From Fodinibius sp. Rm-B-1B1-1 (GTDB lineage Bacteria; Bacteroidota; Rhodothermia; Balneolales; Balneolaceae), in the NCBI RefSeq assembly GCF_038594945.1, contig NZ_JBCFYD010000002.1, positions 310,001 through 374,000 of the forward strand: a DNA stretch of 64,000 nt, in the 5' to 3' direction. Position 1 is the stretch's first letter. The number at the start of each line of letters is the position of its first letter. The notes beneath the pieces were generated by a model, which was not told the DNA's origin, searched no databases, and saw only the letters and a list, made by a program, of their open reading frames with translations. Below are positions 33,015 through 39,189 of the stretch, one piece after another. Both the position numbers and the translations under genes were made by a program.

Positions 33015-33785
33015 ATGCTTAAAGAGATTATTGGAATAGCGAAGGAAGCCGGTCAGGCGATGCTGGAAATTTATCACGATGCGCAGGATGTGGAGATTAG
33101 CCGTAAGGATGATGATTCTCCCCTTACCAAGGCTGATTTGGCTTCGCACCATATTATTGTTGATGCGCTTAAAGAGCTCGATCCCGAAACTCCCATCATT
33201 TCGGAAGAATCAGGTATTCCAGATTATGAGGATCGCAAAGATTGGGGCAAGTTTTGGATTGTAGATCCGCTGGACGGTACCAAAGAGTTTATCAAAAAGA
33301 ATGGCGAATTTACGGTTAATATTGCACTGATAGATGACGGGGTTCCGGTGTTGGGCGTAGTGTACGTCCCAGATAAAGAGACGACCTATTATGCTGAGAA
33401 AGGGAAAGGTTCTTTTAAACAAGTTGGGGCCGATTCTCCGCAGCGAATTTTTTCATCTGCCAGTCATAAAGATGATGAGCTGACTGCTGTTCAAAGTCGG
33501 TCGCATGGGTCCGATAAATTGGTACAGCAGCTCAAAAAGCAGGGGTTGACGGTCAAAGAAACGGTTCCAGCAGGGAGCTCAATCAAGTTTTGCCTGGTGG
33601 CTGAAGGTAAAGCAGATATTTATCCGCGCATGGGCCCAACGATGGAATGGGATGTGGCGGCCGGCGACGCGGTATATCGTTACTCGGCGCGCGAAGGGGT
33701 TCATGAATCGCCGTTGACCTATAACAAGCCGGATTTAAAGAATGGTAGCTTTTTGATTGGACTTATTAAAAATGTTGAATTTTGA
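33015..33785 (+). CDS. cysQ: 3'(2'),5'-bisphosphate nucleotidase
   Basis: CysQ dephosphorylates 3'-phosphoadenosine 5'-phosphate (PAP) to AMP, clearing the by-product of PAPS-using enzymes. The 256-residue inositol-monophosphatase-fold protein shows DDSPLTKADLASHHII, PIISEESGIPDYEDR, the metal site WIVDPLDGTKEFIK near residue 85, and MEWDVAAGDAVYRYSAREG near residue 213. It opens the sulfate-activation cluster. Because PAP is also released by sulfotransferases, this fits the two sulfotransferase genes in the glycan locus. Confidence 0.92.
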   Translation: MLKEIIGIAKEAGQAMLEIYHDAQDVEISRKDDDSPLTKADLASHHIIVDALKELDPETPIISEESGIPDYEDRKDWGKFWIVDPLDGTKEFIKKNGEFTVNIALIDDGVPVLGVVYVPDKETTYYAEKGKGSFKQVGADSPQRIFSSASHKDDELTAVQSRSHGSDKLVQQLKKQGLTVKETVPAGSSIKFCLVAEGKADIYPRMGPTMEWDVAAGDAVYRYSAREGVHESPLTYNKPDLKNGSFLIGLIKNVEF

Positions 33786-33929: not shown

Positions 33930-34289
33930 ATGACATATAAGTTTGAAAAATTAGAGGTTTGGGAGCTTGCAATGAAATTTAATGCTCTTTCTTATACTAT
34001 TGCAGGTACATTGCCAGATCATGAAAAGTATAACCTGACATCACAGTTAAAAAGAGCTTCAACATCAATAGCCTTAAATATTGCTGAAGGATCTACCGGA
34101 CAAAGTAATGCAGAACAATCTCGGTTTTTATCCTTTGCTATTCGTTCGCATGTTGAGGTTGTAGCTTGTATCAGGTTAATTCAAGAACGTAACTATATAG
34201 ATTCAAACACCGAATTGATGAATAGGTTTGAAGAGTTGGGAGCTGAATTATTTGCAAAACTCAATGCATTTAAAAGAGCAATAAAATAG
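33930..34289 (+). CDS. S23-type four-helix-bundle protein (23S rRNA intervening-sequence family), copy 1
   Basis: This 119-residue all-helical protein of the S23/TIGR02436 family has KFEKLEVWELAMKFNALSYT at the N-terminus, LTSQLKRASTSIALNIAEGS in the middle and SRFLSFAIRSHVEVVACIRL. The family was first met as ORFs inside 23S rRNA intervening sequences; diversity-generating retroelement accessory proteins (Avd) share the fold. The function is not established. It stands between cysQ and cysC, transcribed the same way, and is flanked by imperfect inverted repeats of the 'AAAGAC..GAC..TGAC' words (33875-33894 and 34300-34319, 14 of 20 positions paired). No reverse transcriptase is present. Confidence 0.85.
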   Translation: MTYKFEKLEVWELAMKFNALSYTIAGTLPDHEKYNLTSQLKRASTSIALNIAEGSTGQSNAEQSRFLSFAIRSHVEVVACIRLIQERNYIDSNTELMNRFEELGAELFAKLNAFKRAIK

Positions 34290-34355: not shown

Positions 34356-34889
34356 ATGAATAGTAATAAAATGTCACTAAAACCTACTGTCCTTTGGTTT
34401 ACGGGGTTATCGGGATCGGGGAAGAGTACGATATCAGAAAAAGTATATGCCCGGCTAAAAGACCAGGGGTATGAGGTTGAGCATTTGGATGGGGATGCTG
34501 TTCGGGAAGTGTTTCCCCAAACGGGGTTTTCAAAAAAAGAACGGGATGATCACGTAAAACGAGTAGGCTTTATCGCCAGTTTGTTGCAGAAACATGGTGT
34601 TTTTGTAGTGGCTTCGTTTATTTCTCCTTATCAGGATGCCCGAGACTTTGTCCGCAATATGTGCCAGGACTTTACCGAAATTCATATTTCTACTCCGCTT
34701 GAAGTTTGTGAAGAGCGGGATGTGAAAGGACTATACGAGAAGGCGAGAAAGGGAGAGATCGATAACTTTACCGGTATTAGTGATCCGTATGAAGAGCCAG
34801 AAAATCCAGAATTGCGAATCGATACTACTGATATTACGCCTGAAGAGGGAGTACAGCGGGTATTTGAATATTTGCGTGAGAAAAGTTGA
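34356..34889 (+). CDS. cysC: Adenylylsulfate kinase
   Basis: APS kinase phosphorylates adenylylsulfate to PAPS, the universal sulfuryl donor. The 177-residue protein has the P-loop GLSGSGKSTIS near residue 19, LDGDAVREVFPQTGFSKKER with the APS-binding residues, VKRVGFIASLLQKHGVFVVA, SFISPYQDARDFVR, and CEERDVKGLYEKARKGEI. An in-frame ATG six codons in is also possible. It is a free-standing kinase, not fused to CysN. It is cut off from cysD by about 470 bp of repeats with a terminator-like hairpin. Confidence 0.93.
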   Translation: MNSNKMSLKPTVLWFTGLSGSGKSTISEKVYARLKDQGYEVEHLDGDAVREVFPQTGFSKKERDDHVKRVGFIASLLQKHGVFVVASFISPYQDARDFVRNMCQDFTEIHISTPLEVCEERDVKGLYEKARKGEIDNFTGISDPYEEPENPELRIDTTDITPEEGVQRVFEYLREKS

Positions 34890-35356
34890 CGGTCGACGAA
34901 GGACCGAAGACCGTGATTAGGTGATTGGGTTATAACGTGACGGAGTTGCAAAGTGGCAAAGTTGTGAAGAGACGGATGAGTGATGACCGAGGACCGACCT
35001 GTCATTTCGACCGGAGGCTGGGGGTTTGAGCCAGAATGGAGAAATCTTTGTTTTTTGACCCACCCCAAACCCCTCCTTATGACTATGGAGGGGCTTAAAA
35101 ATCGTGAAGTTGTTATCTGAAGTGACTACGTGATTGGGTTATTAAGTTACTGGGTGAGGGGGGGACAAAGATGCAAAGTGACAGAGCTGCAAAGTGTTTT
35201 CATGGGATACAATTCTCTTATAACTTTAGAGAGCCTGTTGTGATGACTATTCAAAAACAGTTACGAATTCCCTTATCTGATAAAATCCAATAGTCATTGG
35301 GTTTTAAAATTCTTACTTTAAGCCGTTTTAGTTTTACTGAAAAATAAAATCAACAA
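34890..35356. repeat. Composite intergenic repeat between cysC and cysD
   Basis: From about 34890 to 35190 the sequence repeats the composite seen at 27000 and 38030: 'gacggtcgacgaaggaccg' words, TGTCATTTCGACCGGAGGC, GAGAAATCTTTGTTTTTTG, CCACCCCAAACCCCTCC and TATGGAGGGG. The CCCCTCC/GGAGGGG pair at 35068-35096 makes a hairpin that could act as a terminator. The last 150 bp are unique AT-rich sequence that probably holds the cysD promoter. Confidence 0.7.
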
Positions 35357-36262
35357 ATGCATTTATATAAACTGAATCACATCCGGCAATTGGAGTCGGA
35401 ATCTATTCATATTTTCAGGGAGGTCGCTGCCCAGTTTGAGAATCCCGTCCTGATGTTTTCCGGAGGGAAGGATTCTATTACGATGGCGCGTTTGGCTCAA
35501 AAGGCATTCTGGCCCGGAAAAATTCCTTTCCCTTTTTTACATGTAGATACGGGACATAATTTTGACGAGACCATTGAATTTCGTGATCAATTGATGGATG
35601 ATCTGGGCGTTGAACTTATTGTAGCTCACGTGCAGGACATGATTGATTCTGGAAAAGTGAAAGAACCCAAAGGTCCCAATCCAAGTCGCAATAAGTTGCA
35701 GATCCCGACTTTGCTGAATGCGTTGGAAGAGCATGGTTTTGATGCCGCTTTTGGCGGGGCACGTCGTGATGAGGAAAAAGCACGGGCCAAAGAACGGTTT
35801 TTCTCCCACCGTGATGAATTTGGGCAGTGGGATCCCAAGAACCAGCGTCCGGAGTTATGGAATTTGTATAACGGCAATAAAAATCACGGAGAGCATTTTC
35901 GGGTATTTCCGCTGAGTAACTGGACGGAGATGGATGTATGGCAGTATATTGCTTCCGAAGGGATTGATATTCCCAGCTTGTATATGGCGCATACCCGTGA
36001 TGTGGTTGAACGCGAAGGGACCTATCTGGCAAAATCGCGTTTTATTACCTTGTCGGATGATGAGGAGTATGAGGAACGTCAAATTCGATTTCGTACTATT
36101 GGCGATATGACGTGTACCGGTGCTTTTGAATCTGATGCCGATACGCTCCCTCAAATTATTGAAGAGGTGGCATCGGCTCGTATTACCGAGCGTGGTAACC
36201 GTACGGATGACAAAAAAGCTGAAGCAGCAATGGAAGAACGTAAGAAGCAGGGATACTTTTAG
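35357..36262 (+). CDS. cysD: Sulfate adenylyltransferase subunit 2
   Basis: CysD is the catalytic subunit of ATP sulfurylase, making adenylylsulfate from ATP and sulfate with GTP energy from CysN. The 301-residue protein shows HIRQLESESIHIFREVAAQF, the PP-loop FSGGKDSITMARLAQKAF near residue 34, HVDTGHNFDETIEFRD, AFGGARRDEEKARAKERFFS, FPLSNWTEMDVWQYI and TIGDMTCTGAFESDA. The length is as usual. It is separated from its partner cysN by an S23 gene, an uncommon interruption because cysD and cysN are normally adjacent. Confidence 0.95.
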   Translation: MHLYKLNHIRQLESESIHIFREVAAQFENPVLMFSGGKDSITMARLAQKAFWPGKIPFPFLHVDTGHNFDETIEFRDQLMDDLGVELIVAHVQDMIDSGKVKEPKGPNPSRNKLQIPTLLNALEEHGFDAAFGGARRDEEKARAKERFFSHRDEFGQWDPKNQRPELWNLYNGNKNHGEHFRVFPLSNWTEMDVWQYIASEGIDIPSLYMAHTRDVVEREGTYLAKSRFITLSDDEEYEERQIRFRTIGDMTCTGAFESDADTLPQIIEEVASARITERGNRTDDKKAEAAMEERKKQGYF

Positions 36263-36274
36263 AGGGCAGTTCAA

Positions 36275-36680
36275 AGTGTTAAGTACTAAGTTTTAAGTGA
36301 TGTCCTACCAATCATTCGAAGATTTAAATGTGTGGAAGCGTTCAACACGATTATCGGTTGAGCTTACCAATTATCTGAGTGATTGCAATGACTATGCTTT
36401 TAAGAACCAGGTATTAAGATCAGCGTTGTCTATTCCCTCTAATATAGCTGAAGGAGCTGAACGTCATTCAGAAAAAGAGTTTCGCTATTTTTTGAATGTT
36501 GCTAAAGGTTCTGCTGCCGAGCTTAGAACTCAATTATATGTCGGTATGGAAACAACACTTGTAGAGAAAGAGATAGCTCAAAAAATGATAAAAGAGTTGA
36601 AAGAACTTTCATCAATGTTACAAGGATTAATTAAAAGCTTAGATAAAAAACTTAACACTTAAAACTTGTTACTTAACACC
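36275..36680. mobile_element. Inverted-repeat-bounded cassette carrying an S23 gene (IVS-like element)
   Basis: The left arm at 36275-36299 (AGTGTTAAGTACTAAG followed by TTTTAAGTG) and the right arm at 36656-36680 (CACTTAAAACTTGTTA followed by CTTAACACC) are inverted copies that match at 22 of 25 positions. The left arm ends exactly at the S23 start codon and the right arm overlaps its last codons and stop, so the whole 406-bp unit is arm-gene-arm. The arrangement resembles rRNA intervening sequences, where an S23 ORF sits inside an inverted-repeat stem, but the location is the cysD-cysN gap. No target-site duplication is obvious. That it moves or is processed is inference. Confidence 0.6.
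36300..36662 (+). CDS. S23-type four-helix-bundle protein, copy 2, inside inverted repeats
   Basis: The start at 36300 is the ATG directly after the left inverted-repeat arm; the GTG one codon upstream is within the arm. The 120-residue product has YQSFEDLNVWKRSTRLSVEL, VLRSALSIPSNIAEGAERHS, EFRYFLNVAKGSAAELRTQL and a lysine-rich C-terminus. It belongs to the same S23 family as the protein at 33930 but differs widely, so it is not a recent duplicate. The last residues (KLNT) and stop are encoded within the right arm. The function is unknown; nucleic-acid or RNA-hairpin interaction is a reasonable guess from family context. Confidence 0.85.
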   Translation: MSYQSFEDLNVWKRSTRLSVELTNYLSDCNDYAFKNQVLRSALSIPSNIAEGAERHSEKEFRYFLNVAKGSAAELRTQLYVGMETTLVEKEIAQKMIKELKELSSMLQGLIKSLDKKLNT

Positions 36681-36735
36681 TAACTTATCAGAAGTGATAG
36701 TAAGATTTTAATTTTTAAGATACTGAATAACCATA

Positions 36736-38016
36736 ATGAGCACTGAAAAGAACGAAGCACAGAAATATTTAGATATGGATTTGCTCCGCTTTACGACGGC
36801 GGGCAGCGTGGATGATGGTAAAAGTACTTTGATTGGTCGCTTGCTATATGATTCGAAAGCTATTTTTGACGACCAGATGGAGAAGATTGAAGAATCCAGT
36901 CGTAAGAAGGGAGATGAATATACGAACCTGGCACTGCTTACCGATGGACTATCGGCCGAACGCGAGCAGGGCATCACCATTGATGTGGCATACCGCTATT
37001 TTTCCACGCCGAACCGAAAGTTTATTATTGCCGATACGCCCGGACATGTGCAATACACGCGAAACATGGTTACAGGGGCATCTACAGCCAATTTGGCTAT
37101 TATTCTGGTGGACGCGCGTAATGGTGTGATTGAGCAAACTTGTCGACATTCGTTTATTTCTTCGCTATTAGGAATCAAGCACGTAGTACTATGTGTTAAT
37201 AAGATGGATTTGGTGGATTACAGTGAGGAGCGATATAACGAAATCAAGCAGGAGTTTAAGACCTTCTCTTCCAAGCTTGATGTCCCAGATATTCATTATG
37301 TGCCCATTAGCGCCCTGTATGGTGATAACGTTGTGGATAAATCCGATAATATGCCGTGGTACGGAGGGTCGACGCTGTTGTATACACTCGAAAACGTGCA
37401 GGTAGGTAGTGATTATAATCACGTTGACAGCCGTTTTCCCGTGCAGTGGGTTACACGTCCGCAATCTACCGACTATCCCGATTACCGTGGTTATGCCGGG
37501 CAAGTTGCCGGTGGCGTTTTTAAACCCGGTGATGAAGTTATTGCATTGCCCTCCGGATTTACCAGCAAAATTGACAAGATTCAAACCTTTGAGCAGGATG
37601 AAGAGGAAGCTTTTTCTCCGATGTCGGTAACGATGACTTTGGAAGACGATATTGATATCTCCCGCGGGGATATGATTGCCAAACCTGACAACCAGCCTAC
37701 TGTGGGACAAGATATTGAGATGATGGTCTGCTGGCTAAATAAAGAGCCGCTTGATCCTAATGGAAAGTACGCTATCAAGCATACCACCAAAGAGGCGCGA
37801 TGCATTGTCAAGGATGTGAAATACAAAGTAAACATCAATACGCTGCACCGCGTGGAAGGGGATAAGGAGATTGGGCTTAATGATATCGGACGTATTAAAA
37901 TCCGAACAACGAAGCCGCTCTTTTATGATTCCTATAAACGCAATCGCAAGACGGGCAGTATTATTCTTATTGATGAATATACCAATGAAACTGTTGGAGC
38001 AGGGATGATTCTTTAA
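36736..38016 (+). CDS. cysN: Sulfate adenylyltransferase subunit 1 (GTPase)
   Basis: CysN couples GTP hydrolysis to APS formation by CysD. The 426-residue translation-factor-type GTPase has the G1 motif TAGSVDDGKSTLIGRLLYDS near residue 21, DGLSAEREQGITIDVAYRYF, the G3 motif IADTPGHVQYTRNM, and the G4 motif CVNKMDLVDYSEE. Domains 2 and 3 follow (GYAGQVAGGVFKPGDEV; NTLHRVEGDKEIGLNDIGRI). It ends without a fused CysC domain, in keeping with the separate kinase gene at 34356. Confidence 0.95.
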   Translation: MSTEKNEAQKYLDMDLLRFTTAGSVDDGKSTLIGRLLYDSKAIFDDQMEKIEESSRKKGDEYTNLALLTDGLSAEREQGITIDVAYRYFSTPNRKFIIADTPGHVQYTRNMVTGASTANLAIILVDARNGVIEQTCRHSFISSLLGIKHVVLCVNKMDLVDYSEERYNEIKQEFKTFSSKLDVPDIHYVPISALYGDNVVDKSDNMPWYGGSTLLYTLENVQVGSDYNHVDSRFPVQWVTRPQSTDYPDYRGYAGQVAGGVFKPGDEVIALPSGFTSKIDKIQTFEQDEEEAFSPMSVTMTLEDDIDISRGDMIAKPDNQPTVGQDIEMMVCWLNKEPLDPNGKYAIKHTTKEARCIVKDVKYKVNINTLHRVEGDKEIGLNDIGRIKIRTTKPLFYDSYKRNRKTGSIILIDEYTNETVGAGMIL

Positions 38017-39189
38017 GGGCAGTTACTTAGTGATTAAGTAACAAGGTAACAGAGCTGCAAAGAGACAGAGTGGCAAAGGACTGACGACCGGTGACGGAGG
38101 ATCGATCTGTCATTTCGACCGGAGGCTGTGGTTTTGAGCCGGAGTGGAGAAATCTTTGTTTTTTGCCCCACCCTAAATCCCTCCCCACGAGTAGGGAGGG
38201 ACTTTTAAACCGTGAAGTTTTTTGGAGTGACTAAGTAACTGAGTAATAAAGATGCAAAGTGACAAAGGATTAAAACTCATGAGGTTGGTACTGGTAATTC
38301 CCCTTGGAGAAGGGGATTGACGTGAGGGCTACGTTTGGTAACTTCCAATTTTCTCGTGCTGTAGCTCTACTGTGGCATAGCTTTAGGTTTGGAGATGCCC
38401 CTTTTTTCTTGATAAAAAGGGGACTAAAAAAATCAAGGCTGAGAATAATCTACCCATTCCAGATCAGCGGATTGAATAAATTCGATGGACCGTTGCATGG
38501 TTGCCTGTGAAGGAAAGGGGCACCGGTGCGAATTTATTCCGGGCATCCGCTGACCTACACATATTATTCGTAGGCCGGGTTATAAGACTGTAAAGCATAT
38601 TTCTCTTGATGCATCCCGTCCCCAAACGTTTTAAAACCAAACTCCTGTACAAAGTTGTGAGTGAGCTGTACGTACGATTAATATTTTGACCCACCCCAAA
38701 CCCCTCCCTATAACTATGGAGGGGCTTTTGTTTATGAGATAATTAAGAACATTTTTCCCCTTGGAGAAGGGGATGCAGGGGATTGAAAAACAGTGATTAG
38801 GTGACCCATCCCCGGCCCTTCCCTAACAATTAGGGAAGGGGGAAACCCGTGAAAGTAGCAATTGGAAATCCCTCTACTATGTTTGGTGTTACTTCGTAGA
38901 GCAAGCTTAATCCCTTTCTATAAGTATGGAGGTGCTTTTTAAAACCGCATTCTTTTTCATGGTGAAAGTTACAGGTTGAAGGTTCACTTAGAAGCATCTA
39001 TGTGATGACGTTTCAGAGTTACAAGTGTAAAGTGACCGACGACGGTGTTTGAGGTTAAGGGTTTTATTTTGACCGGTGTTGGCCTGAAGGGGGCTGGGAT
39101 AGTGAGTGGATTCGAAAGGCAGGAGAGGGTTAAAAAATAAATTTATTTTGTAACAAGTATCTTCCAGCCTACTCTTGTCTGCAAATCAA
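38017..39189. repeat. 1.2-kb intergenic block packed with repeats
   Basis: Three repeat types follow one another: the composite repeat (about 38030-38225, with CCCTCCC/GGGAGGG hairpin), a long hairpin repeat (38389-38590, see separate entry), and another composite segment (38688-38860: CCACCCCAAACCCCTCC, TATGGAGGGG, CCCCTTGGAGAAGGGG, CCCTAACAATTAGGG). From 38860 to 39190 there are weaker copies of 'GTTACAGGTTGAAGG' words. No gene is supported. Confidence 0.65.
38389..38590. repeat. About 200-bp hairpin repeat, copy A
   Basis: It begins GGAGATGCCCCTTTTTTC, continues through AATCAAGGCTGAGAATAATC and ends near TATTATTCGTAGGCCGGGTT. Inside, TCAGCGGAT..AATAAATTCG (38464-38484) pairs with CGAATTTATT..ATCCGCTGA (38529-38553), and AATAAT/ATTATT extends the stem outward. 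A second copy lies at 43256-43452. It has no ORF and could be a miniature inverted-repeat element or a structured RNA. Confidence 0.7.

Follow-up and report, generated by a model that had tools for sequence, protein, structure and literature searches.

S23 genes bounded by inverted heptamer arrays as candidate minimal mobile elements in Fodinibius and other bacteria

The S23 locus between cysD and cysN

The window, a stretch of 64,000 nucleotides of Fodinibius sp. Rm-B-1B1-1 (contig NZ_JBCFYD010000002.1, positions 310,001 to 374,000), contains a sulfate-assimilation cluster in which an S23 gene lies between cysD and cysN, within a protein operon and not in an rRNA gene (Table 1). Genes for S23 four-helix bundles are very common; their name dates from 1993 and refers to insertions in rRNA, and to our knowledge no function has been assigned to the family. 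A preliminary description of the locus had claimed an S23 gene exactly enclosed by a 25-bp inverted repeat, and our measurements bore this out. The arms at 36275-36299 and 36656-36680 showed inverted complementarity at 22 of 25 positions, the same figure as before; the left arm ended directly before the ATG at 36300, the right arm covered the last codon and the stop codon (36660-36662), and the reading frame between them matched the S23 profile.

The arm match was locally significant (p=6e-4; 5000 dinucleotide shuffles of the flanks). Both arms were periodic, with a match at a lag of 7 nt of 0.68 in the left and 0.70 in the right arm, while other lags gave about 0.2-0.35, and the heptamer arrays reached slightly beyond the 25-nt arms (Table 1). 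The product, here called S23-a, resembles the PDB entries 2gsc (E 8e-13) and 2rld and is 86% identical to an S23 protein of F. halophilus, the closest named relative. The gene is under strong purifying selection (pN approximately 0.1 versus pS 0.72-0.82).

Table 1. Features of the cys cluster in the window
Feature	Position	Strand	Remarks
S23-b	33930..34289	+	unrelated to S23-a; between cysQ (33015-33785) and cysC (34356-34889)
ORF-less word array	34890..34985	+	directly 3' of the cysC stop; lag-8 match 0.47
ORF-less word array	35130..35200	+	CAAAGTGA-type words; lag-8 match 0.51
cysD	35357..36262	+	host gene 5' of the putative insertion; orthologues compared
Left arm	36268..36299	+	degenerate heptamer array, TTAAGTG type; between the cysD stop (36262) and the S23 ATG
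S23-a	36300..36662	+	S23 / 23S_rRNA_IVP four-helix-bundle gene, 120 aa; PF05635 E 1.4e-30
Right arm	36650..36683	+	inverted heptamer array; first part encodes the S23 C-terminus and stop
cysN	36736..38016	+	host gene 3' of the putative insertion
ORF-less word array	38017..38075	+	directly 3' of the cysN stop; lag-8 match 0.55

A second S23 gene, S23-b, missed in the preliminary description, occurs between cysQ and cysC. It belongs to an unrelated lineage; its arms have decayed in the window and are clear in a relative (G008; L037, arm score 22). Among relatives the cluster is a repeated target of S23 insertion. A dispersed repeat, TGTCATTTCGACCGGAGGCTG...GGAGAAATCTTTG..., is present at about 34995-35095 and 38110-38200, 3' of the word arrays that follow cysC and cysN, and other copies of related type were seen in neighbouring stretches. 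Two further intergenic regions (L174:2350-3180 and L174:9950-10440; G000:C2 376350 and 383950) consist of word arrays without ORFs; these belong to several families and are nested, as if elements had been inserted into one another.

Arms around S23 genes in other bacteria

Inverted arms with a score of at least 16 were found at 71% of 118 S23 genes in relatives, whereas only 6% of permuted flank pairs and 6% of 137 control genes reached this score. The objection that such arms might be equally common around unrelated genes, raised in the preliminary description, is thereby answered. Scores of at least 15 were obtained for 16 of 19 further S23 loci elsewhere in the phylum and for 25 of 29 loci from Pseudomonadota, Desulfobacterota, Verrucomicrobia, Ignavibacteria, Omnitrophota, CPR and other groups, and all 12 S23 loci examined on cyanobacterial plasmids had arms (score 17-39). 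Across the phylum, 116 of 148 genomes contained PF05635, and the copy number among the relatives ranged from 0 to 16; a search for S23 genes on phages found none.

The best period was 7 nt in 74 and 8 nt in 18 of 96 arms, and again 7 nt in 11 of 12 cyanobacterial arms. G exceeded C in the left arm in 88 of 96 cases, so the element has a polarity. In the protein the residues Q37, R40, S44, N48, E51, S71 and E74 are invariant, which argues for a conserved biochemical task. Rfam gave no match in 12 S23 loci, and none of these matched rRNA.

Correlation of heptamer words with S23 protein lineage

Pairs of S23 genes from different genera that had no neighbouring gene in common were compared with respect to their arms. 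The arm-arm score was 8.2-8.4 for proteins less than 55% identical and 12.0-13.7 for proteins 55-80% identical. The difference between high- and low-identity pairs was 4.02, against 0.47 ± 0.24 (maximum 1.15) when arms were shuffled within genera (500 shuffles). At the same site, unrelated S23 proteins had unrelated words. The link extends beyond the phylum: an S23 protein from a Trichormus variabilis plasmid is 74% identical to one from the Balneolaceae and both genes have AATTCAG/AAGTCAG words (arm score 28), and a Desulfobacter S23 protein, 58% identical to that of the window, shares TTAAGTG-type words with it. The choice of heptamer correlates with the S23 lineage and not with the genomic site, across genera and phyla, so that the S23 gene and its arms move together. 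The genome-wide distribution of one word, present in four of six genomes with its S23 clade and in six of 53 without, weakly backs this link.

Comparison of the cysD-cysN and cysQ-cysC sites

The junction between cysD and cysN was compared among 30 relatives. S23-a was common to three genomes (G000, G010 and G005), while most congeners had no S23 gene here. In some relatives only 44-56 nt separate cysD from the conserved start of cysN, and others have ORF-less hairpins of words. One genome (G002) has an unrelated S23 gene with other words at this junction, and a further S23 type occurs there in other genera. The gene is not fixed at this position, and the pattern that would have spoken against the preliminary interpretation, an armless S23 gene at this site in all relatives, was not found. 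In two loci (L058 and L060) the right arm of the element apparently lies within the cysN frame and would thus give CysN a new N-terminal tail.

In F. halophilus the S23-a lineage is located between cysQ and cysC, with perfect 28-nt arms composed of the same words as in the window, where this slot is occupied by S23-b. The cysD-cysN junction of F. halophilus (L042, assigned to this genome from identical cysD coordinates and score) is free of S23. This change of site was seen between genomes, not within one strain. Comparison of G010 with F. halophilus gave a pN of 0.088 for S23-a and of 0.020 for cysD; this greater divergence of S23-a is at odds with simple vertical descent.

Empty sites, target duplication and decay

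Conjugative plasmids of cyanobacteria provide the same gene pair with and without an S23 element. The element is 423 bp long in plasmid C of T. variabilis and 409 bp in Scytonema NIES-4073, and the difference of 14 nt corresponds to two heptamers. In both it begins with AAATCAG, ends with TTCTTCTTT and is flanked by two copies of GTAAT; S23 is the only open reading frame, and a recognised transposase is absent. Removal of the element and one GTAAT yields the sequence of Nostoc linckia, with 1200 of 1223 positions identical (98%) and no gaps. Such a clean and perfect 5-bp target site duplication was seen at this one site only: a second cyanobacterial site has a less clean duplication of TTCT or TTCTA, at a third 8 nt of the target are missing, and 74 Balneolaceae flanks gave no overall duplication signal (p=0.16). 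Two plasmids of Nostoc sp. ATCC 53789 share an operon (92-98% identical) with different S23 elements in different slots, the slot filled in one being empty in the other.

The direction of change at filled and empty sites is an inference, and loss accounts for some of the empty ones. At one plasmid site (L270) the GGGAACA arms remain and the S23 gene is gone, and at another (L267) S23 is truncated; both represent decay of S23 elements. Of the g17 genomes, G037, G045 and G050 have the S23 unit and G027 and G181 lack it; since the outgroup G050 has the gene, the empty site is probably due to loss.

Armed S23 elements were also observed at cas6-cas4 and cmr2-cmr3 junctions of cyanobacterial plasmids (L255, L258 and L262). 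They are a likely explanation for the IVP genes reported, without explanation, from cas operons (PMC3936711).

The mobility of the unit formed by S23 and its arms is strongly supported by these comparisons. We believe, with a probability of roughly 0.7, that the locus is a copy of a minimal mobile element of approximately 400 bp, which consists of the S23 gene and its two inverted heptamer arms and contains no other gene. The preliminary description had likewise taken the locus for an intervening-sequence-like or miniature mobile element in a normally contiguous cysDN operon, and both the different position of S23-a in F. halophilus and the cyanobacterial empty site with its 5-bp duplication speak for it.

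Placement at gene ends and possible roles in mRNA

The left arm started no more than 15 nt from the stop codon of a codirectional upstream gene in 58 of 71 cases, and where the downstream gene was convergent the right arm abutted its stop. Placement at stop codons fits the survival of insertions at the 3' ends of genes; a target preference of the element for gene ends is also possible. With respect to S23, the upstream and downstream genes were oriented ++ in 61, -- in 17, +- in 10 and -+ in 2 cases.

It might be thought that the element acts at the RNA level only. According to this explanation the arms form an mRNA stem that is cut by RNase III and insulates S23 expression, and the unit spreads by nothing more than ordinary horizontal transfer and homologous recombination. 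Folding of the region, as had been suggested, gave a predicted RNA structure (36255-36735) in which both arms pair (MFE z -2.3), insertions co-oriented with the operon outnumber antisense ones (61 versus 17), and the terminal 28-bp stem of the Coxiella intervening sequence (IVS) is cut by RNase III (PMC4990558). However, homologous recombination does not explain insertion at new, unrelated sites with a target duplication, the 17 antisense insertions are armed as well, and a mere stem needs no coupling of words to protein lineage. We therefore regard a purely RNA-level element as unlikely. An IVS-like mRNA stem formed by the arms of S23-a is nevertheless possible for a mobile element too, judging from the predicted fold.

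Search for mobility proteins

The preliminary description had also considered that the unit is moved by a trans-acting enzyme. No such dedicated enzyme was detected. At the thresholds used, the genome of the window had no match to PF00078 (reverse transcriptase) and none to PF01797 (Y1 or HUH transposase), so neither is needed. Reverse transcriptases are also absent from most S23-rich genomes and were rejected as obligate movers; the same applies to Y1/RAYT enzymes, which are missing from the window's genome and whose repeats are different in kind.

The S23 gene could instead be a passenger captured in heptamer hairpins that are substrates of another enzyme, such as a Y1/RAYT transposase or a reverse transcriptase. 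The copy numbers of S23 and Y1_Tnp are in fact correlated (rho 0.73, 59 genomes), but the window's genome as well as G006, G008 and G017 contain S23 without Y1, and reverse transcriptases show the distribution just described. The Y1/RAYT-like genes of S23-carrying genomes (L144-L163), whose copy number tracks that of S23 with a rho of 0.73-0.84, have palindromes of their own, which are G+C-rich and unlike the S23 heptamers, and the coupling of words to S23 would be left unexplained. Capture of a passenger thus seems improbable. It is hardly credible that the arms are nothing but common intergenic repeats or terminators, such as could form at the end of any gene, with S23 merely among them: word arrays without S23 do occur in the window and elsewhere, but matching arms were found at only 6% of control genes, word identity follows the S23 lineage and not genome or site, and exact insertion units exist.

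A 30-nt motif with fixed spacing, the GTAAGG box TGTAAGGATT-N12-GGTCTTAC, was observed at G000:C2:191758-191787 (L168:11758) and nine more places of the genome. Genomes of Fodinibius and of some relatives have 2-14 copies each. The motif is located upstream of 27 of 135 S23 genes, had no match in Rfam and looks like an ECF-sigma promoter. It was rejected as a part of the element because solo copies are abundant where S23 is rare.

A model for the S23 element

A mobile S23 element might work as follows. An S23 oligomer would recognise its own heptamer ends, either as a DNA hairpin or as the stem in the RNA, and would move or maintain the unit with the help of host enzymes. Insertions at the 3' ends of genes would survive, as the arm, with its stop codon, would terminate the reading frame before it and leave the following ribosome-binding site intact. 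In the operon mRNA the two arms could form a stem that encloses the S23 frame, much as in a 23S rRNA intervening sequence, and decay of the S23 gene would leave ORF-less word hairpins behind.

We know of no catalytic activity of S23. A bolder proposal, to which we give somewhat less than an even chance, is that S23 itself provides the mobility function and that its elements are autonomous ones of a new class. A helical bundle of non-catalytic appearance would read lineage-specific heptamer arrays, perhaps by its helix face of invariant Q, R, S, N and E residues, and insert the unit of about 400 bp with host enzymes or by chemistry of its own; the intervening sequences of 23S rRNA, as well as the heptamer repeats found in Cyanobacteria and Bacteroidetes, would be its footprints. 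Such a protein would be categorically new.

If the units are mobile and have cognate heptamer ends, the S23 family would acquire a role and the presence of S23 genes within cas, tra and cys operons would be explained. Whether the reading frame of intervening sequences encodes a mobility protein also becomes a directly testable question. Heptamer repeats have been used as cyanobacterial fingerprints for decades, and those of Nostoc and Calothrix were reportedly described as STRRs by Mazel et al. in 1990; mobile S23 units would provide an origin for them. We found no paper in the open-access literature that ties S23 genes to heptamer arms.

Relation to known systems

Unlike classical insertion sequences, the S23 element has no recognised transposase. 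Avd of the diversity-generating retroelements is a homologue within the four-helix-bundle family (PMC10053308), but the S23-a locus lacks a template and a variable repeat, and a reverse transcriptase is missing both from the locus and from the whole genome. The resemblance to REPIN/RAYT is closer: a protein gene is located between cognate inverted short repeats, ORF-less hairpin relatives occur at gene ends, and a protein lineage is paired with its own flanking repeat, with S23 in the place of RAYT. The S23 protein, however, is a helical bundle without HUH/Y1 domain, and its degenerate heptamers are of many types whereas REP palindromes are G+C-rich.

Heptameric STRR repeats of cyanobacteria and the TAACTGA repeats, the latter with no known carrier, are likewise 7-nt tandem repeats that are intergenic, lie near stop or start codons and have a patchy distribution in Cyanobacteria and Bacteroidetes (PMC4679880). 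They were described as direct repeats without a protein or an inverted partner, whereas the arrays of the window type are tied to S23. These known repeats may be footprints of the S23 element.

The intervening sequences in the 23S rRNA of Leptospira and Coxiella share with the S23 element the S23 reading frame, a length near 400 bp, a stem built from terminal inverted repeats and a suspected mobile origin; mobility of the Coxiella sequence, which encodes S23, has been proposed and is unproven (PMC4990558). Several rRNA insertions of CPR bacteria also carry IVP (PMC11270868). The element described here differs in that it resides in protein operons, its heptamer arms are tied to the protein lineage, a target site duplication was seen once and its stem is a predicted one. 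Although it is not located in rRNA, S23-encoding intervening sequences are its nearest relatives.
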